From a virus, in the IMG/VR virus record IMGVR_UViG_3300005747_000025, positions 1-23,696 of that record: 23,696 nt of DNA. The stretch is one strand, 5' to 3'. The position numbers were made by a program, and so were the translations under genes. The notes beneath the pieces were generated by a model that ran no database searches, had not been told where the DNA came from, and saw nothing but the letters and a program-made list of their open reading frames with translations. Numbering within the stretch: the first letter of the stretch is position 1; the number at the start of each line of letters is the position of its first letter. This document shows positions 9,884-23,463 of the stretch, piece by piece.

Positions 9884-10643
9884 CGTCTCATTGATTTTTT
9901 AATCATAGCTGATTCTAGTTGATTCTTTTCTTTCTCAAACGTAAGATACATCAAACACTTAAATATTGGTTCTCTTGTAACTTGGTCAAATTTAGTGAGG
10001 TCTCCTTTAGCGATTCCATAAATCGACTGATACCAACCCCATTTTTTTCCAAAGTTTCCCTGAGCTGAGAGGTCTTGACTTTCTTCATCTCCATCTCCAA
10101 AAAGGCTAGGGAAGCTTTCGATAACTCGATCCCTAAATCGTAAAAAAAAACCATAACCCCCATAACAACGCTAAGTGGCATCTCCCTCATCCATTCCCTC
10201 AGTTCATCATTTGGCTTGTAGGGGGCTATAGTATATCTTTCTTTGCTTTTGAAATTGACTGGTCTATACAACACCGCCATTGCTTTGTGGATCTCTTGCC
10301 AGTCGGTTACGGTGGCTTCTATGTCAACGTACTCACCTAGACTCATATCGTCAAGTTTTGGTATAAGACCCATCTCTACTTCACCAAGAGTAAAGTTACG
10401 CTTGAGTTGGTGTTTTTCCTCAAAAGCTTTTCTGACTATGGATAGTATCTTATCGAACTCTACAACGGGAATAGATTCCACATCATTAAGATTAACATCA
10501 CAGAATATTTCTACGAGTTTCTTGTTTACAAAGTCGTTGTATTCATCTCCCTTGTTATCATCTAATATTTTTAGATATCGTTGATATTGCCCAAGGGTAA
10601 TCGATTCTAGAGAGGTTGGTACTTCTAATTCTATTTTTGCCAT
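9880..10643 (-). CDS. Tail assembly chaperone, -1 frameshift fusion product
   Basis: If ribosomes slip back one base at 10041-10047, the protein is identical to the chaperone for about 200 residues and then continues for 53 more (WGWYQSIYGIAKGD, KFDQVTREPIFKCLMYL, FEKEKNQLESAM, ending MRR), giving 254 aa. The extra part has a coherent protein-like sequence with Trp, Tyr and an amphipathic helix, and its TGA stop overlaps the next ATG as ATGA. Without the shift, that stretch would be an unexplained 68-base gap between genes. This is the arrangement of the two-product tail chaperones of siphoviruses. The slippage rate cannot be judged from sequence. Confidence 0.75.
9951..10643 (-). CDS. Tail assembly chaperone, unshifted product
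   Basis: A 230-aa protein from MAKIELEVPTSLE. I prefer this ATG to the TTG two codons upstream. Such chaperones coat the tape measure before tail tube polymerisation. Recognisable segments are SITLGQYQRYLKIL, LSLGEYVDIEATV/TDWQEIHKAMAVLYRP and a helical C-terminus. The key evidence is the second product: an A7T slippery run near codon 200 and a well-formed -1 reading frame downstream, as in lambda gpG/gpGT-type genes. The unshifted frame continues 30 codons past the slip site and ends at TGA. It is the first gene of the structural operon, after the non-coding repeat region. Confidence 0.75.
   Translation of the reverse strand: MAKIELEVPTSLESITLGQYQRYLKILDDNKGDEYNDFVNKKLVEIFCDVNLNDVESIPVVEFDKILSIVRKAFEEKHQLKRNFTLGEVEMGLIPKLDDMSLGEYVDIEATVTDWQEIHKAMAVLYRPVNFKSKERYTIAPYKPNDELREWMREMPLSVVMGVMVFFYDLGIELSKASLAFLEMEMKKVKTSQLRETLEKNGVGISRFMESLKETSLNLTKLQENQYLSV
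10041..10047 (-). other. Slippery site for programmed -1 frameshifting (A AAA AAT)
   Basis: Read on the minus strand in the chaperone frame: GAA AAA AAT GGG GTT. The heptamer A AAA AAT fits X XXY YYZ. A tandem -1 slip leaves AAA and AAA paired and moves to the frame TGG GGT TGG TAT. No long stable stem is obvious right after it, so stimulation may come from another structure. It lies inside a tail chaperone gene, where frameshifting is widely conserved. Confidence 0.75.
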
Positions 10644-10678
10644 ATACAAAAGTAATTACTTTATTCGATTTTGTAACT

Positions 10679-10686
10679 CAAAGATA
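10679..10686 (-). promoter_or_regulatory. Possible -7 promoter element for the structural operon
   Basis: The minus strand reads TATCTTTG, matching the TAnnTTTG element of Bacteroidota promoters, about 36 bases before the chaperone ATG. No TTTG is found 19-21 bases further upstream; instead the palindrome array begins about 40 bases upstream. This suggests a promoter that needs an activator or an alternative sigma factor, as expected for late genes. A second match (TACTTTTG) lies 5 bases before the ATG itself. Confidence 0.4.
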
Positions 10687-10725: not shown

Positions 10726-10827
10726 ATACTCTAGTATTATACTTAGTATATTATACTAAGTTATATAATAAAAAAAGAAATAGTATTATACTTAGTACAG
10801 TATACTTAGTATAATATACTTAGTATA
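10726..10827. repeat. Array of 13-bp palindromes TATACT-W-AGTATA
   Basis: Perfect copies of TATACTTAGTATA at 10738-10750, 10801-10813 and 10815-10827; near copies at 10787-10799 (one mismatch), 10752-10765 (one inserted base) and 10726-10737 (ATACT-CT-AGTAT). Centres are 14 bases apart within groups (10744/10758 and 10793/10807/10821), with a 35-base step between the groups. TATACT and AGTATA are reverse complements, so each copy is a two-half-site operator. The region is almost purely A/T. The same motif recurs at 22183-22243. Likely a binding array for a phage protein; origin and operator roles are both possible. Confidence 0.8.
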
Positions 10828-10835
10828 ATAAAGCA

Positions 10836-11220
10836 AAGCGATAACTTTTACTGTGGCAGGTGGAGATAGTTGTACACTCCGTATTGAATTCACAGGGTAG
10901 GATTGTCTATTGACCCTATTGAATTGCGTTGGCAGTTGGAAAAGATTGTCTGTGGGGAGTGGTGGTTACTTTACCCATACTACTTAACGCCCGTCATACT
11001 ACCCTTTATTTCGCATTTTAAGGTACTTTTAAGAGCGTTTTACCTTTCTCTGGTGGTCTTATATCACTTAGGTGGTTTATTGCCTCTCTGAGGGGCTTAA
11101 ATTAGCTTAGGTTTATAATTTAAAGCAAGATGCTGGATTTGATTTGATAAATTAAGCTATCAATCCAACCCTTTTTTAATTATAAACTATTAAGGCTCAA
11201 TAAGGTTAATAAAATAAAGC
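10836..11220. other. Non-coding region with inverted repeats
   Basis: No convincing gene on either strand. Contents: two TATTGAATT repeats (see separate entry); a TTGGCAGTTGGAA segment at about 10929-10942 that matches the upstream part of two promoters elsewhere; and, between 11100 and 11190, nested imperfect inverted repeats (GTTTATAATTTAA with TTAATTATAAAC; GGATTTGAT with ATCAATCC; TTGATA with TATCAA). GC content is locally higher at 10850-11090 than in the flanks. An origin, a packaging site or a structured RNA are all possible; none is shown. Confidence 0.5.
10881..10926. repeat. TATTGAATTC repeat pair in the non-coding region
   Basis: One full copy, GTATTGAATTCACAGGG, at about 10881-10897, and one variant, CCCTATTGAATTGCG, at about 10914-10928, with a short CTATTGACCC between them. 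They match the copies at 12361-12424 and 23542-23588. This is the smallest of the three clusters. Confidence 0.55.
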
Positions 11221-11222
11221 AA

Positions 11223-11247
11223 TAAAAAAACCCCCTAAAAAGGGGGT
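11223..11247 (-). terminator. Rho-independent terminator
   Basis: On the minus strand: a perfect 7-bp stem ACCCCCT/AGGGGGT (11230-11236 with 11241-11247), a 4-base loop and a run of seven T. It lies 31 bases after the stop of the 42-aa gene and closes the four-gene unit that starts near 12.23 kb. Confidence 0.9.
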
Positions 11248-11277
11248 GAAAATATTATTTATTTTTATTTTTCTATG

Positions 11278-11406
11278 TTACCAGCTATATGGGTAATTAT
11301 TTTGACTTTTATATCCGTGCTTTGTTTCGAGATATTCAGCCCGTCGTATTTCTTTCTGTTTTTTCTTTTGCTCCCTATTGTATAGGAATTGTATTTTGTT
11401 GCTCAT
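11278..11406 (-). CDS. Small basic protein, 42 aa
   Basis: Starts MSNKIQFLYNREQKKKQKE and ends NNYPYSW just before the terminator. Overlaps the end of the 113-aa gene by 32 bases. Very rich in Lys, Arg, Gln and Glu, probably one helix followed by a Tyr/Asn tail. No family recognised. Its position as the last open frame before a strong terminator, with a clean stop, supports it, but the long overlap and low-complexity composition leave doubt. Confidence 0.5.
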   Translation of the reverse strand: MSNKIQFLYNREQKKKQKEIRRAEYLETKHGYKSQNNYPYSW

Positions 11407-13318: not shown

Positions 13319-13554
13319 AATTCTATACTTCCTTTTATTGCGTCTATCAATGATTTTGTAGGTTTAAGTTTTTTGGGTTCATATATTTCTATGGGCCACT
13401 CATAGTCCTCTGTCTCATCATACGCTTTGGTTACAAGACTGACATTAAATGTGTTAAAGTGATATTCGTAATAATCCCAAGCTGTTTCGCCATTTTCTTT
13501 TGCGAATACATTTTTTCTTCTAAAGCCTAAAGCTATTAATTCTCTTTCTGTCAT
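13315..13554 (-). CDS. Hypothetical protein, 79 aa
   Basis: MTERELIALGFRRKNVFAKENG, then TAWDYYEYHFNTFNVSLVTKAYDETEDYEWPIE. Small alpha/beta protein, many aromatics. The first part (ELIALGF, WDYYEYHF) resembles small phage proteins of unknown function with a start like LIxLGFxxxxxxDEFW. Four bases after the previous stop. Function unknown. Confidence 0.7.
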   Translation of the reverse strand: MTERELIALGFRRKNVFAKENGETAWDYYEYHFNTFNVSLVTKAYDETEDYEWPIEIYEPKKLKPTKSLIDAIKGSIEL

Positions 13555-16061: not shown

Positions 16062-16419
16062 CTTTTTCTTCTTTGTGGTCAACATCTATTGTTTTAGGTT
16101 TTGTGAAATCAATCACTGGGATATTGATATTGGTATTTACATTTAGTTCCTGCTGTTCTTTTGGTTTACCATAACGATATTCCCATAGCATCTTAGTATA
16201 ATTGAAATTACCTTCTGATGCTTTTTTAGCTATATGGATCCAAGCTTTCTCCTCACTTCCAAAAGTCTTTGTGATAGCCTTAAGTGTGAGAGCATTCGTC
16301 TCTTTCTCCTTGATCTTAGGAGGTCTACCCTGACCCCTATATACACCTTTTACAGCACCATTGTTCCTACGTCCGTCTACCTTTTTAGTAGAAGTCTTTT
16401 TGTCTTCTTGATTTCTCAT
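16036..16419 (-). CDS. Terminase small subunit candidate
   Basis: A 127-aa protein. The basic N-terminus (GRRNNGAVKGVYRGQGRPPK) is followed by a helical middle (TLKAITKTFGSEEKAWIHIAKKASEGNFNYTKMLWEYRYGKPKEQ) that resembles DNA-binding parts of small terminases, and an acidic tail. It lies two genes before the large terminase, interrupted by the 39-aa and HNH genes. The assignment combines position and this helix-plus-GKP pattern; a different DNA-binding role is possible. Overlaps the DnaA-like gene by 35 bases. Confidence 0.55.
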   Translation of the reverse strand: MRNQEDKKTSTKKVDGRRNNGAVKGVYRGQGRPPKIKEKETNALTLKAITKTFGSEEKAWIHIAKKASEGNFNYTKMLWEYRYGKPKEQQELNVNTNINIPVIDFTKPKTIDVDHKEEKDGETEKDK

Positions 16420-16870
16420 CTATTAGTTTATTGTGGGCTTCCATTAACATTTCGTAATTCTTGGATAACAACTTAAAAGAATCTTTAAGTTTCTCATAAC
16501 TTACCGATATATCTATAAAGGCATTCCCTTCGTCTATATCTCTTTGAATATATTCCTGGTATATAGAATTCAGATGGACGTACCTTGAATTAAGATTTAC
16601 ATTGTTTAAGATATCAAATTCCAATTGATTAATTATGTGGAGAATGGTAGCGTGGTTTTTACCTATTGAACTCCCTATAGCTGAGTAAGTCATAGACGTA
16701 TTATCCCTCAGCAATTTGCTATACATCGCCCTTGCCTCAACGTACTCCCTAATTCTACGGGGAGTTGATATATCTAAATTGTAATATTGTTCCACCACAT
16801 CTCTGGCTCTTGACCTTATGTCAATATCCCTTTGAACTTGATCTATTGTTTTTTTATTCTTCACTCCCAT
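16385..16870 (-). CDS. DnaA domain IV-like DNA-binding protein
   Basis: A 161-aa protein. Residues about 39-84 (RRIREYVEARAMYSKLLRD, then MTYSAIGSSIG and KNHATILHIINQ) match the C-terminal DNA-binding domain of DnaA, where a basic loop and a (N/D)HATVLHA helix contact DnaA boxes. No ATPase region is present. The rest (about 100-160) is a predicted coiled coil (VSYEKLKDSFKLLSKNYEML). It may bind the phage origin or act as a regulator or small terminase relative. It lies between the exonuclease and terminase genes. Confidence 0.75.
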   Translation of the reverse strand: MGVKNKKTIDQVQRDIDIRSRARDVVEQYYNLDISTPRRIREYVEARAMYSKLLRDNTSMTYSAIGSSIGKNHATILHIINQLEFDILNNVNLNSRYVHLNSIYQEYIQRDIDEGNAFIDISVSYEKLKDSFKLLSKNYEMLMEAHNKLIDEKSRRQKDFY

Positions 16871-19019: not shown

Positions 19020-19393
19020 TTTTCGTATTCTTTGTATACCTTCTCCAGTTTGCTATATACATTATTAAGGAAACAAGACCCACAACTGGTAGTCTTAGCC
19101 TTCTCATTAAAAACCCTGTTGTATATAGTTACAAGCTCCTTTTGAGTCTCAGTAGTTACTTTGTTAGATTTAGAGGAAAAGAATTTGTCAAGATAATTGT
19201 ACTCCGCCTCATTTAAGCACTCAGGTTTTTTGTACGGAAACAAACGATTTAGAGCGTCTCTACGCTCGGAGCATTTGCAATCCTCACCTAAAGCCCACTT
19301 GGCCAACTTGTCCACACCTGTGGCTTGGAATACCTTCTCTACAGTATCACCAAGCCCAGAGGATTTTTTACTTTGTCTTTTGGTACTTTTCAT
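19016..19393 (-). CDS. Cys-rich phage protein, 125 aa
   Basis: MKSTKRQSKKSSGLGDTVEKV. Residues about 14-60 contain GDTVEKVFQATGVDKLAKWALGEDCKC..RRDALNRLFP, a motif I associate with a small protein common in Bacteroidota phages, and Cys39, Cys41, Cys59, Cys104 and Cys107 could bind zinc. C-terminal half is helical. It overlaps the sigma-like gene's end by 26 bases. Function unknown; a transcription-linked role is only suggested by its neighbour. Confidence 0.6.
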   Translation of the reverse strand: MKSTKRQSKKSSGLGDTVEKVFQATGVDKLAKWALGEDCKCSERRDALNRLFPYKKPECLNEAEYNYLDKFFSSKSNKVTTETQKELVTIYNRVFNEKAKTTSCGSCFLNNVYSKLEKVYKEYEK

Positions 19394-19910
19394 AGTCCTT
19401 TTTGGTTTTATTCCTAATCTTTTGTTTTATATTAGTTAAAGTATTAAAAATTGAACTCAGACTTATCTTTGTTTCCTTAGCTATCTTCCGCATACTCATT
19501 CCCTCAGCGAAATGAATGTTAAATATCTTTTTATCATACCAATACCACTTGTCAACTTCAGATTCTATTTTACCTATCAGATTTTCAAACTCCTCTTTTT
19601 GATTTATAATATTATAAGAATCATCTGGAATTTCATCTAATTTAGCAAAATCATCTAAATATACAAACTTATTATTTGGTTTATGATGGGTACTTAGGTA
19701 TAAGTTTCTTAAAGTAACGTATATATAAAAAGTATTTACCTCGTTATCGTTATACAATATCTTGTCAATGTTGTCAACGTACCCATAAACCCTAACGTAC
19801 ATTTGTTGAACTAATTCGTTGGAATCATCGGTAGATAGCCCAAAGGATTTAGCCATATTTAACCAATCCTCGTGCTTATCTGCCAATACATCTATTAGTC
19901 TTCTTTCCAA
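19368..19910 (-). CDS. Sigma-70-like factor (phage RNA polymerase sigma)
   Basis: A 180-aa protein beginning at a TTG (no ATG near). Residues about 29-72 resemble region 2 (SNELVQQMYVRVYGYV, then FYIYVTLRNLYLS). Residues about 128-166 resemble region 4 with a helix-turn-helix (KIFNIHFAEGMSMRKIAKET, SLSSIFNTLTNIKQKI). Fits phage sigma-like factors of extracytoplasmic-function type. It may redirect host RNA polymerase to late promoters such as those near 10.68 kb. The start is uncertain; the TTG overlaps the 52-aa gene by 16 bases. Confidence 0.75.
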   Translation of the reverse strand: MERRLIDVLADKHEDWLNMAKSFGLSTDDSNELVQQMYVRVYGYVDNIDKILYNDNEVNTFYIYVTLRNLYLSTHHKPNNKFVYLDDFAKLDEIPDDSYNIINQKEEFENLIGKIESEVDKWYWYDKKIFNIHFAEGMSMRKIAKETKISLSSIFNTLTNIKQKIRNKTKKDYEKYQKTK

Positions 19911-20057: not shown

Positions 20058-20372
20058 TTAAACGTTTTCTATTATAACATCTAACCTTGGGTCTTGTCTA
20101 TCAATCCCCATATAACAAGCATTAACTTCAACCACAACTGATAAATCATCACTCTCTATGCAACCACATTCCACCATAGCATCCTGAAAAAACTTGTCTA
20201 CAACGCTTATTACATTCATCAAATCCCGTTTTCTTTTATCAGGGGCAAAGTAAAAGTAGTCAATTTTTATCTTACCATCAAATTTAAAGTCCAATTTCCT
20301 AGATATATCGGATTTAAATCTACGTTTTATATCGTTACTTACTTGATAATGCCAATTCCTGTAGCTATTCAT
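20058..20372 (-). CDS. rusA: RusA-like Holliday junction resolvase
   Basis: A 104-aa protein. The ATG overlaps the helicase stop by 8 bases (ATGAATAG); a longer in-frame start would lie deep inside the helicase gene and is not used. The family pattern R-D50-L-M-N53-x5-D59-x4-D64 ... E-S-D75-D76 with the surrounding KRKRD and VVVEVNA sequence fits RusA-type resolvases, whose Asp residues bind metal and cut four-way junctions. It would resolve recombination intermediates made by the ERF, SSB-like and exonuclease proteins. Confidence 0.8.
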   Translation of the reverse strand: MNSYRNWHYQVSNDIKRRFKSDISRKLDFKFDGKIKIDYFYFAPDKRKRDLMNVISVVDKFFQDAMVECGCIESDDLSVVVEVNACYMGIDRQDPRLDVIIENV

Positions 20373-22149
20373 CGTAATCCATCTTCTCCTCCCCGACTTC
20401 TCTATGAATAGGGGAAGTGATATTGTTTTGGTTTTTACTAATTCTCTCATTGTCAATTTCCTTAAATGGAGTAAATCCGTTAAAATAATACCTTTGATGC
20501 CTAACATCGAAATCAATCGATTGAACATCTTGAGGAAAACCGACAAGTTTTTGTTTCTTAATCTTTTGGGAACCAAATATCACTTGTTTATCATTGTGAT
20601 CTATAGCTTTATTAGGTCTCCATACAAATAAAACGTTGTCAGCCTTATTTGCGAATTCACTACCACCCTTGACGTAATTTAAGTCAGGTTTTGGATATCT
20701 GCCAGCATCATCCTTCCTAGGAGTAACTTGATGAGCCACTAAATGTACTGATATCTTGTTATCTACAGCAAATCTCTTTAATTCCCCCATAAACCTTGAA
20801 ATATATAGGTCTTCACGCTCCCCTGATCTCATTTTATGGTGAATTACGTTGTAAGGGTCGATAATTAACCCGTTTATACCTTTGTTTCGTACTAAATACT
20901 TTGCTTTATCAAATATAGTGGTTAAATCATAGTTCTTTTTGGGGTATATAACAAAAAAGTGGTCTTGAATGAACTTTATCGCCTCATTGTACTCATCAAT
21001 ACTCATTTGCAAGTTACCGTGGCGTTTTTGACTTGATTTTCCTATATACATCTCTATAAAATCACCAAAAAAGTCTTGTAAAGGAGTATTTTCAGGTGAA
21101 AAGTATCCAAATCTCCATCCCTCTTTGGCTGACTTAATCAAACTAAGTTGATTTAAGAATAAAGTCTTCCCTTCGTTCTGATACCCAGTCCAAACATTAA
21201 CTTCACCAGGCCTCCAAGTCCAAGCAGAATCAACTTGTGGTATATAAGTTGTCGTACCCACCTCTTGACCGTTGTGGAATGACTCAATCAACTTGTCATA
21301 TACATCACTCACTGTAAAGACACCCTCCACTTTAGGTTCTGAGGCGTTTTTAAGGCGATTTAAGAGACTTTCTCTACCCTCCTGTAGTAATACCTCATTT
21401 GCATCCTTAAAAGGGCTAAAATCGACTATTTTACACCTTTCAGTTCCTAATCGTCTAATTAACTCTTCCTGAAGTATCTTACCATTCTCATCATTATCGG
21501 TTGCAACGTATATAGTTTTAGCCATCTCAAAAGCTTCGTAGCAGTTACTAATACACTGGAGTTTTTTGTCTACCGTTTTGTCGTGGGGGTTTGGTGCCCC
21601 CATATTTACACTTGTATGGGATATGCAACCTGCTTCTTCCCAAGATAAAGAGTCTATTTCACCCTCACACACAATAATACTTGGCTTGTTAACAACCTGA
21701 TCGTAATTGTATATAACAGCCTCAGCGTTTTTAGCTTGGGTGAAGAACTTGTTGTTTAGCGATCTAGTTTTATAGTTAACCAACTCCCCATTGCGATAAT
21801 AAGGAAATATGATTGTATTGCCATCTTTAGATGAGTGGATCTTATTCCTATCAATCACACTATCGGAAATACCTCTTGAATTAAGGAACTTTCGCCCAGC
21901 GGAATTTACAGGAACTAAAGTATTTTTGTTAGGTCTAGTATAAATTTGTTCCATTAAATTAGTTTTGAATGATCCTGTCCACCCACATTTATGGCAGAAA
22001 TATAGTGATTTTTCTAAATTTACAGCCAAACATTTATCCTTATAATTTTCTTTACCAAGTTTTAAGCAATTAGGACACTGTGTTTTCTGCTGGTTTCCCC
22101 CATTAGAATTATTTATTTTTATTCCAAGATCAAATAATTGTGAATTCAT
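20365..22149 (-). CDS. Primase-helicase (T7 gp4 / Twinkle-like)
   Basis: A 594-aa replication enzyme. N-terminal zinc-binding primase part: Cys25-x2-Cys28 and Cys52-x2-Cys55. Toprim part: CEGEID with Glu162 and DND at 218-220 for primer synthesis. C-terminal RecA-type helicase: Walker A GYQNEGKT at 322-329, Walker B GLIIDPYN with Asp431, then HLVAHQVTP and VKGGSEFANKADNVLFV. It would unwind DNA and lay primers at the fork. The short A-rich sequence just before the ATG fits Bacteroidota translation starts. The palindrome array lies 34-94 bases upstream. Confidence 0.93.
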   Translation of the reverse strand: MNSQLFDLGIKINNSNGGNQQKTQCPNCLKLGKENYKDKCLAVNLEKSLYFCHKCGWTGSFKTNLMEQIYTRPNKNTLVPVNSAGRKFLNSRGISDSVIDRNKIHSSKDGNTIIFPYYRNGELVNYKTRSLNNKFFTQAKNAEAVIYNYDQVVNKPSIIVCEGEIDSLSWEEAGCISHTSVNMGAPNPHDKTVDKKLQCISNCYEAFEMAKTIYVATDNDENGKILQEELIRRLGTERCKIVDFSPFKDANEVLLQEGRESLLNRLKNASEPKVEGVFTVSDVYDKLIESFHNGQEVGTTTYIPQVDSAWTWRPGEVNVWTGYQNEGKTLFLNQLSLIKSAKEGWRFGYFSPENTPLQDFFGDFIEMYIGKSSQKRHGNLQMSIDEYNEAIKFIQDHFFVIYPKKNYDLTTIFDKAKYLVRNKGINGLIIDPYNVIHHKMRSGEREDLYISRFMGELKRFAVDNKISVHLVAHQVTPRKDDAGRYPKPDLNYVKGGSEFANKADNVLFVWRPNKAIDHNDKQVIFGSQKIKKQKLVGFPQDVQSIDFDVRHQRYYFNGFTPFKEIDNERISKNQNNITSPIHREVGEEKMDYDE

Positions 22150-22182
22150 TTGTTTTTTTATAATTATATATATATATTATAT

Positions 22183-22243
22183 TATACTTAGTATTATACT
22201 TTTATTTATTTATTATAATACTTAGTATAATATACTTAGTACT
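22183..22243. repeat. Second array of TATACT-W-AGTATA palindromes
   Basis: Copies at 22183-22195 (TATACTTAGTATT), 22217-22229 (AATACTTAGTATA) and 22231-22243 (TATACTTAGTACT), centres 34 and 14 bases apart. A related palindrome TATACA-T-TGTATA at 22257-22269 lies in the end of the winged-helix gene. All between the winged-helix gene and the primase-helicase gene. Same motif and similar spacing pattern as 10726-10827. Confidence 0.75.
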
Positions 22244-22255
22244 ATACTAATAGTT

Positions 22256-22519
22256 CTATACATTGTATAATGTACTGTGTATATTACTTGGTAAATTAAG
22301 AATTATTTTTCTCTCTTTACCGTAATGGCCTATAGACTTTGTTTCTCTAGTAATTACGTTTTTACTTTCGAGGGAACTCAAAGTTCTATAGTAAGTCCTT
22401 TCGCTAATACCAACTAGCTCCAATAATTCCTTATCAGGAACCATACAAACCCCTTTGTTTTCCACAGCAATAGTAGCTATTTCAGTAAGCAAAATAGCCT
22501 CATTGTAATTCAATTCCAT
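22256..22519 (-). CDS. Winged-helix DNA-binding protein, 87 aa
   Basis: MELNYNEAILLTEIATIAVENK; then a helix-turn-helix with DKELLELVGISERTYYRTLSSL at about 28-49, and a wing (NVITRETKSIGHYGKERKIILNL at about 54-76). The size and layout fit a small winged-helix regulator or the DNA-binding domain of a replication initiator. It is directly upstream of the primase-helicase gene, and its last codons lie next to the palindrome array, making it the leading candidate to bind that array (inference). An intrinsic terminator lies just before its start. Confidence 0.75.
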   Translation of the reverse strand: MELNYNEAILLTEIATIAVENKGVCMVPDKELLELVGISERTYYRTLSSLESKNVITRETKSIGHYGKERKIILNLPSNIHSTLYNV

Positions 22520-22577: not shown

Positions 22578-22865
22578 CTAGAACGGCATATCATCCTCTA
22601 GAGGAGCCTTTTCAACTTTAGGTGCTGGATTATTATTACCAGTATTTTCTGGCTTGTAGTCATTCACCCAAACGCTATGGGTCTTTCCATACTGATCAGT
22701 TTGTTTTAAGCCACCTACAGTAAGCTTAACATAACGATCACCATTATACTCATACCAATGGGAAGACAATTTGCTCTCCGCAATAGATATATTGATTAGA
22801 TCGTAGTTACCTGGTTTGACTCCTTTACCAACGTAAATTCTGTCATTTGATTGATTTTTACTCAT
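22578..22865 (-). CDS. Single-stranded-DNA-binding-like protein, 95 aa
   Basis: MSKNQSNDRIYVGKGVKPG, then a beta-strand-rich body (YDLINISIAESKLSSHWY, YVKLTVGGLKQTD), a disordered Asn/Pro/Lys tail and the C-terminus APLEDDMPF. The acidic-hydrophobic DDMPF end is the hallmark of SSB proteins, which use it to recruit replication and repair partners. The small body would be a minimal OB-fold but is not assignable with certainty. It follows the ERF protein with 10 bases between them, fitting a single recombination module. Confidence 0.7.
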   Translation of the reverse strand: MSKNQSNDRIYVGKGVKPGNYDLINISIAESKLSSHWYEYNGDRYVKLTVGGLKQTDQYGKTHSVWVNDYKPENTGNNNPAPKVEKAPLEDDMPF

Positions 22866-22875
22866 AATTATATAT

Positions 22876-23427
22876 TTAGGATGTTAATAAATTAGCTACT
22901 TCTTTACTTACTTTATACTTCTTTCTAATATCAGTGATTGAAAATCCATCAGCCAAAGCCTTTTTAGCATTGTTAAATTGGGCAGAATCCTTTTGCAACC
23001 AAGGTTTATTATCTGGTTCCTCTTGATTATTGGAATCGTGGGTATTGGTAGCATCAGCATCTTTGGTGTCATCTATTAAGAATAAACCATTTAAAGCGTA
23101 CTTCCTAGCATAAGACGAACTCGCTCCAAATGATTGAGCAATGTCCATTCCCTTCTTATTGGGTGATACCCCAGCTTGTGCCTTTACAACTATTGACTTA
23201 TCCCCATCAGAGATAACAGCATTAGATTGTATAAAGTAAATATCTCCAATCTGCATTGTTTCATCCGTCAGATTTAACACGAGATTGTGTTCCTTGAGTA
23301 ATGGCTTTACAGCTTCAAGGATGTCCTCACAACTACGGTAATTGTAGTTACCGAAATTGTTTCTTTGATTTTTAGGTGATTTCAGTCTCCCCTGAATATC
23401 AACCAGCTTATCATTAAGAGTTTTCAT
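22876..23427 (-). CDS. ERF-family single-strand annealing protein
   Basis: A 183-aa protein from MKTLNDKLVDIQGRLKSPK. I use this ATG because the six codons before it (from a TTG) run into the promoter. ERF signatures are FGNYNYRSCEDILEAVKPLL (about residues 27-46) and SFGASSSYARKYALNGLF (about 96-113), followed by LIDDTKDADA. The C-terminal 50 residues are a more variable helical region. It would anneal complementary single strands during phage recombination or replication, with the SSB-like protein and the exonuclease of unit B as partners. Confidence 0.9.
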   Translation of the reverse strand: MKTLNDKLVDIQGRLKSPKNQRNNFGNYNYRSCEDILEAVKPLLKEHNLVLNLTDETMQIGDIYFIQSNAVISDGDKSIVVKAQAGVSPNKKGMDIAQSFGASSSYARKYALNGLFLIDDTKDADATNTHDSNNQEEPDNKPWLQKDSAQFNNAKKALADGFSITDIRKKYKVSKEVANLLTS

Positions 23428-23431
23428 ACGG

Positions 23432-23463
23432 CAAATATAAAACAAAATATTCCAACTGACAAA
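23432..23463 (-). promoter_or_regulatory. Promoter immediately upstream of the ERF gene
   Basis: Minus strand TTTG (23460-23463), 20 bases, TATATTTG (23432-23439), then CCGT and the ATG. Transcription normally starts 4-8 bases beyond TAnnTTTG, so the transcript would have almost no leader before the ATG. The spacer starts TCAGTTGGAATATT, matching the promoter at 13843-13873. Confidence 0.8.

Follow-up and report, generated by a model that had tools for sequence, protein, structure and literature searches.

Genes and Palindrome Arrays

The stretch of viral DNA that we have analyzed, referred to throughout as the window, is taken from a virus record, is 23,696 bp long with a GC content of 34% and, as judged from a reading of its open reading frames, carries its genes on the minus strand. 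Searches of the window for RNA families and tRNAs returned none. Two arrays of a short palindrome are found in it, and these, along with the genes and elements discussed below, are located as follows.

9951..10649, minus strand, tail-assembly-chaperone-like gene with a likely ATG start codon at 10643, opening the structural block
10647..10680, minus strand, promoter-like element separating the chaperone start from array 1, about G(R)TACAnAA-N~17-TTAnTnT-ATATG
10735..10794, no strand, AT-rich stretch in array 1, 7 G/C in 60
10738..10827, no strand, array 1, sites at 10738, 10752 (weak), 10787, 10801 and 10815
16385..16870, minus strand, DnaA domain IV-like protein (PF08299, E 8e-9, above the gathering score)
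19368..19910, minus strand, ECF-like sigma factor, a possible alternative regulator of the putative chaperone-side promoter
20365..22149, minus strand, primase-helicase (Toprim and DnaB_C)
22161..22220, no strand, AT-rich tract in array 2, 3 G/C in 60, beside the primase start
22183..22283, no strand, array 2, sites at 22183, 22217 and 22231, weak copies at 22257 and 22271
22256..22519, minus strand, O-like winged-helix protein, 87 aa (PHROGs 678 and 270; AlphaFold model; weak Pfam)
22578..22865, minus strand, SSB-like protein with an acidic DDMPF tail, recognized by its sequence and unmatched in Pfam and PHROG
22876..23445, minus strand, Erf-like single-strand annealing protein (PF04404, E 1e-36)

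Array 1 is flanked on one side by the tail-chaperone-like gene and on the other by ∼550 bp without a clear gene, and array 2 is set between the 87-aa winged-helix gene and the primase-helicase gene; the tail-chaperone and primase-helicase neighbors are those that had been named in an earlier, sequence-only reading of this DNA. The product of 9951..10649 is probably a tail-assembly chaperone or chaperone-like, as suggested by its position and by an overlapping second frame in relatives. Such a frame overlaps the end of the chaperone gene in contig L006 (13963-14277 and 14034-14726, minus strand) and in contig G001 (9728-10042 and 9279-9971 after orientation), and these overlapping frames resemble frameshifted tail-assembly chaperones.

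The core TACTNAGTA occurs seven times in the window, with four copies in array 1 (10738-10827), three in array 2 (22183-22243) and none elsewhere. When up to one mismatch is allowed the full palindrome TATACTWAGTATA gives six matches in the window, all of them inside the arrays, where 0.08 would be expected from 100 shuffles, and a random spread of the motif, which would have spoken against the sequence-only reading, is thus not observed. In simulations from Markov models fitted to the AT-rich sequence of the arrays themselves the observed counts were reached in 0/20,000 and 2/20,000 cases. Array 1 contains three perfect copies (10738-10750, 10801-10813 and 10815-10827), as had been claimed; the three near copies that were counted in addition prove generous, there being one with 1 mismatch (10787-10799) and one weak copy with 3 (10752-10764). 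The steps of 14, 35, 14 and 14 bases in array 1 are as described earlier, and so is the recurrence of the motif ∼11.4 kb away at 22183-22243, with a step of 34 followed by one of 14 between the sites at 22183, 22217 and 22231. The copies there are less exact, with 1 mismatch each at 22183-22195 and 22217-22229 and 2 at 22231-22243, and a weak copy is also present at 22257-22269 (2 mismatches) and another at 22271-22283 (3 mismatches), both within the 3' end of the O-like winged-helix gene.

Array 2 contains the lowest-GC 60-bp stretch of the window, 22161..22220, a candidate DNA unwinding element. The corresponding stretch in array 1, 10735..10794, is among the four lowest in GC in the window, and is AT-rich without being extreme. 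Among eight genomes checked, the lowest-GC 60-bp stretch falls in array 2 in five (the window, G001, G024, G027 and G049) and not in G007, G039 and G043. A strand-bias shift near the arrays had also been suggested as a mark of an origin and this expectation was not borne out, with neither GC nor AT skew at four-fold sites giving a consistent shift at either array.

Conservation of the Arrays in Related Phages

With a 27-base stretch of the array as scan query two contigs were matched, the array being at the same place in both. Array 1 is kept in place in L005 and in L013-L017, the latter obtained from protein-based searches, and array 2 is kept in place in L008, L009, L010 and L012, which also come from protein-based searches. 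In 18 long contigs an array is found between the O-like gene and the primase-helicase gene, and the other array precedes the tail-chaperone gene by 60-300 bp; the proposed search for the motif in related phages has therefore returned both arrays, each conserved in place. Contig G001 comprises 34,586 bp and, because of a 123-base end repeat, is probably a closed genome; G007 and G024 are likewise closed by end repeats, so that three of the 18 long contigs are closed. Beyond its two arrays G001 contains no further site with 1 mismatch or fewer. Across the genomes studied here the arrays are separated by 11.4-14.6 kb.

An alignment-based search produced 80 primase loci, and in ∼70 of them, nearly every relative examined, the primase is directly preceded by an O-like reading frame. 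Between the end of the O-like gene and the primase short palindromes, read by eye, are abundant in most of the ∼70 relatives and are lineage-specific. The O-like stop codon is inside a palindrome in G001, G024 and G043; in the window the copies that fall within the gene are all weak. The closest isolate by primase is Tenacibaculum phage JQ and by terminase Nonlabens phage P12024S, suggesting a flavobacterial host, and no O-like protein was found in either (a 23.6-kb stretch of phage JQ was scanned), with a tblastn search of the O-like protein against isolates yielding one weak match. Phage JQ does encode, at the same place ahead of the primase, a 247-aa protein that matches PHROG 270. No isolate carrying such an array pair was found in the collection searched, 14 contigs of the distant chaperone homologues (L022-L046) yielded no O-like match, cellular genomes gave no confirmed relatives of the primase, and literature searches, drawing mostly on non-subscription journals, turned up no paper that describes these arrays.

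Joint Change of the Word at Both Arrays

The word from which the arrays are built differs across lineages and matches between the two arrays of one genome. It is TATACTWAGTATA in the window, TACACTTAGTGTA in G043, ACATGTTA in G041 and G049 (with a related word in G037), ACATAGTGTA in G039 and G048, TACTTAGTA in G024 and nearly all-A/T in others. Fifteen further long contigs were joined from two halves and oriented, giving 18 with the chaperone gene in all, and in each we located the place in the genome where the 10-base words of array 2 best recur. This place is 60-300 bp upstream of the chaperone gene in 11 of the 18 contigs, which by phylogeny correspond to perhaps six to eight lineages and are therefore not independent cases, versus 26 of 2,700 AT-rich control windows. 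The number of shared words is larger than in at least 99% of the controls in seven of these 11 (the window, G001, G024, G039, G043, G048 and G049) and larger than in 87% in G041; for G027, G037 and G045 the place is the right one with only 3-4 words shared, and the start of array 2 in G045 was placed by estimate. The exact-word test fails in seven of the 18 genomes, mostly those with nearly all-A/T words, because such words are mostly too poor in G/C for the test. Among 12 lineage representatives the normalized word sharing is 0.098 within genomes versus 0.018 between them, and none of 20,000 permutations gave a value as high.

Since the word changes jointly at both arrays, one viral protein probably reads both, and the putative replication initiator encoded beside one of them is the most likely choice. 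The earlier suggestion of a single DNA-binding protein is thus strongly supported insofar as one protein and two sites are concerned, with the coupling of replication to late expression that was part of it being only possible.

A different palindrome, TGYC-N5-GRCA, marks both loci in several relatives, G005, G007, G027, G028 and G045 for example, with 19 occurrences in the 8,993 bp of array loci versus 10 in 597,021 bp elsewhere. It borders one or both arrays in G004, G005, G006, G007, G027, G028, G037, G041, G042, G045, G049 and G050 and is absent from the window, from G001 and from the window's clade. Where it borders array 2 the element contributes in part to the coding sequence for the C-terminus of the O-like protein, so that constraint on the protein could account for its presence; beside array 1 it lies in non-coding DNA.

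Candidate Binding Protein

The O-like protein is similar to the region of phage replication initiators that binds DNA, and it matches PHROG families of such initiators with E values of 9e-8 to 9e-5. AlphaFold models it as a winged helix (pLDDT 81), and structure comparison of this model returns generic winged helices, the initiator structures 4pql, 4pt7 and 5kbj being among the matches, at weak scores (E above 1e-3). Because the score against Pfam Phage_rep_O (PF04492) is 17.3 bits versus a cut-off of 28.7 we use the name O-like and do not file the protein in that family; a weak match to DnaD_N is also below the Pfam cut-off.

Divergence of the O-like protein correlates with the array-1 words when primase, sigma factor, TerL and chaperone are allowed for (partial Mantel r 0.25, p 0.002 for k=7; 0.21, p 0.012 for k=8). 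The values with the array-2 words are r 0.14, p 0.07 (k=7) and 0.21, p 0.007 (k=8), and primase and chaperone divergence correlate with these words as well. We favor the O-like protein as the binder since array 2 overlaps the end of its gene, since it is predicted to have a DNA-binding fold and since it diverges in parallel with the words of array 1, to which its gene is not linked. Taken together this is moderate evidence that it binds both arrays.

Two other proteins were considered for this role. The sequence-only reading had named both the winged-helix protein and a DnaA-like protein as candidates, and of these the former is favored: the DnaA domain IV-like protein, a less likely candidate that is present by profile in 16 of the 18 contigs, is encoded beside the terminase (16385..16870 adjoins a small-terminase-like gene) and the array words are not DnaA-box-like. 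The ECF-like sigma factor, which is present in all 18 contigs, was set aside as the binder because its divergence correlates with the array-1 words only (partial r 0.22, p 0.005-0.007), nearly as well as that of the O-like protein, with no correlation seen for array 2.

Comparison with Known Replication Systems

The one well-studied phage example of two-origin control by a single initiator that we found is SPP1, a lytic siphophage with an annealing protein, an SSB and a Holliday-junction resolvase, in which the origins oriL and oriR are separated by 12-13 kb and are both bound by the initiator gp38 (G38P), with one origin inside the initiator gene and the second within the late region of the genome (PMC6316719, PMC3485210). 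oriL is within gene 38 (PMC6316719), and gp38 is proposed to block forks when bound at oriR and to trigger the switch to concatemers (PMC6316719, PMC3485210). The comparison that follows is with the published descriptions of SPP1.

The likeness extends to two distant repeat arrays, one of them at an initiator gene, here a putative one, near a helicase gene and the other in the late region, here upstream of the tail chaperone. The SPP1 arrays have AT-rich stretches; here such a stretch is the lowest in GC at array 2 in five of eight genomes and is not extreme at array 1. The two separate arrays in one genome carry the same word, a predicted binding site, and one array overlaps the putative initiator gene, as seen from the O-like stop codons that fall inside a palindrome. 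The distance of 12-13 kb in SPP1 compares with the range given above for our genomes, and the accompanying genes are here Erf, SSB-like, RusA-like and primase-helicase. There are also differences, however. The sites here are short palindromes whereas direct repeats are described in the SPP1 papers, the initiator-like protein has only about 85 aa, and primase and helicase are fused, with no separate loader seen.

In phage lambda inverted-repeat iterons are located within gene O, next to an AT-rich region (PMC7466680). The present system is similar in that a repeat array is found at the putative initiator gene, whose 3' end it overlaps, and in the winged-helix DNA-binding fold that is predicted for the O-like protein as for O-type initiators. 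It differs in having two arrays of 13-bp palindromes at 14-bp steps, as opposed to one array with 4 iterons of about 19 bp, and an O-like protein without the C-terminal, partner-binding part of O. In iteron plasmids (RepA_N and similar), as proposed here, a winged-helix initiator binds repeated sites beside an AT-rich element, but the fold matches are common to many winged-helix regulators, and here we deal with a lytic phage that has a second array elsewhere.

Possible Roles of the Two Arrays

We think it reasonably probable that both arrays are iteron clusters for one initiator, the O-like protein, with array 2 as the primary origin and array 1 as a second site. Dimers of the 87-aa protein (22256-22519) would bind the individual palindromes. 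Array 2, which reaches into the initiator's own gene and has an AT-rich tract available for melting, would serve as the primary origin and hand over to the primase-helicase encoded next to it, and array 1, which heads the structural genes at a distance of 11.4 kb, would provide this initiator with a second site, acting either as a late origin or as a roadblock that stalls forks and leads to concatemer synthesis, as proposed for oriR of SPP1. An origin is favored for array 2 because it extends into the end of the O-like gene, contains the AT-rich tract and precedes the primase-helicase gene, and a two-site initiator system because of the SPP1-like spacing, the gene overlap, the AT tract and the annealing, SSB-like and resolvase-like neighbors. 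The choice between operators and origin iterons, left undecided in the sequence-only reading, thus leans to an origin at array 2, and the data for array 1 fit a second origin, a fork barrier or a late-transcription element alike. Array 1 may therefore be a late origin, a fork barrier or a site that acts on a late promoter, the last of these being possible because a recurrent promoter-like element is present beside the chaperone start.

Most letters of this element recur in the 18 contigs. It is located beside array 1 and not within it, none was identified in array 2, and in a genome-wide scan matches on the coding strand outnumber those on the other strand, for which codon bias could account. 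The ECF-like sigma factor could direct the element.

The main rival is that the arrays are transcriptional operators at which a phage DNA-binding protein, O-like or other, represses or activates promoters at both places and so times the primase and structural blocks, no origin being involved. On the coding strand each array does directly precede the gene that opens a block, the promoter-like element recurs between array 1 and the chaperone start, and the phages encode an ECF-like sigma factor whose divergence, too, correlates with the array-1 words. Array 2 is, however, placed amid a replication gene cluster, between the initiator-like gene and the primase, it contains the lowest-GC stretch in most of the genomes checked, and the best family matches of its neighbor are replication initiators and not repressors. 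We therefore regard operators as an unlikely explanation, albeit one to be taken seriously. A mixed role, with array 2 an origin and array 1 an enhancer of the late promoter that is filled when the initiator is abundant or the DNA has been copied, such that late genes follow replication, would agree with the same word at both sites and with the consistent location of array 1 close upstream of the promoter-like element and structural block. Yet the element is much alike whatever the array word and may for this reason work alone, and we rate the mixed role as improbable. Palindrome arrays also occur at centromere-like and packaging sites, but binding by a ParB/ParR-like protein or a pac function in place of one in replication or transcription was set aside as very improbable, being without any supporting gene or position: no partition genes were recognized on reading the ORFs of the window or of the whole of G001, no relatives were found in cellular genomes, and array 2 is far from the terminase.

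Should the preferred two-site reading be correct, an SPP1-like layout would extend across an environmental phage family of which the collection searched contains no cultured member. The word changes jointly at two places that are not linked, one of them beside the putative initiator gene, and this would constitute a natural series of matched protein-site pairs by which the specificity of the initiator and the purpose of the second origin become directly testable, and would supply a simple sequence rule for locating candidate origins in uncultured phage genomes. A more far-reaching proposal, and one we would put forward only tentatively, is that of a large uncultured, probably flavobacterial, lytic phage family in which a very small initiator reads two distant arrays, couples the start of replication to late expression or to the concatemer switch and re-invents the word at both arrays at once in each lineage.

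The Gene-Poor Stretch Upstream of Array 1

Positions 10830-11370 of the window, the ∼550 bp upstream of array 1, are without a clear gene in the window's own clade and gave no Rfam match. More distant relatives carry a small gene at this place and the stretch may therefore be a decayed gene. In relatives a different short repeat, about TGTGAATTCAATAGGG, is found in 1-4 copies upstream of a ∼90-aa gene that precedes array 1; it is located at about 13440-13520 in G042 (oriented) and upstream of the chaperone gene in G005, and in the window two degenerate copies are left at 10880-10930 in the gene-poor stretch.
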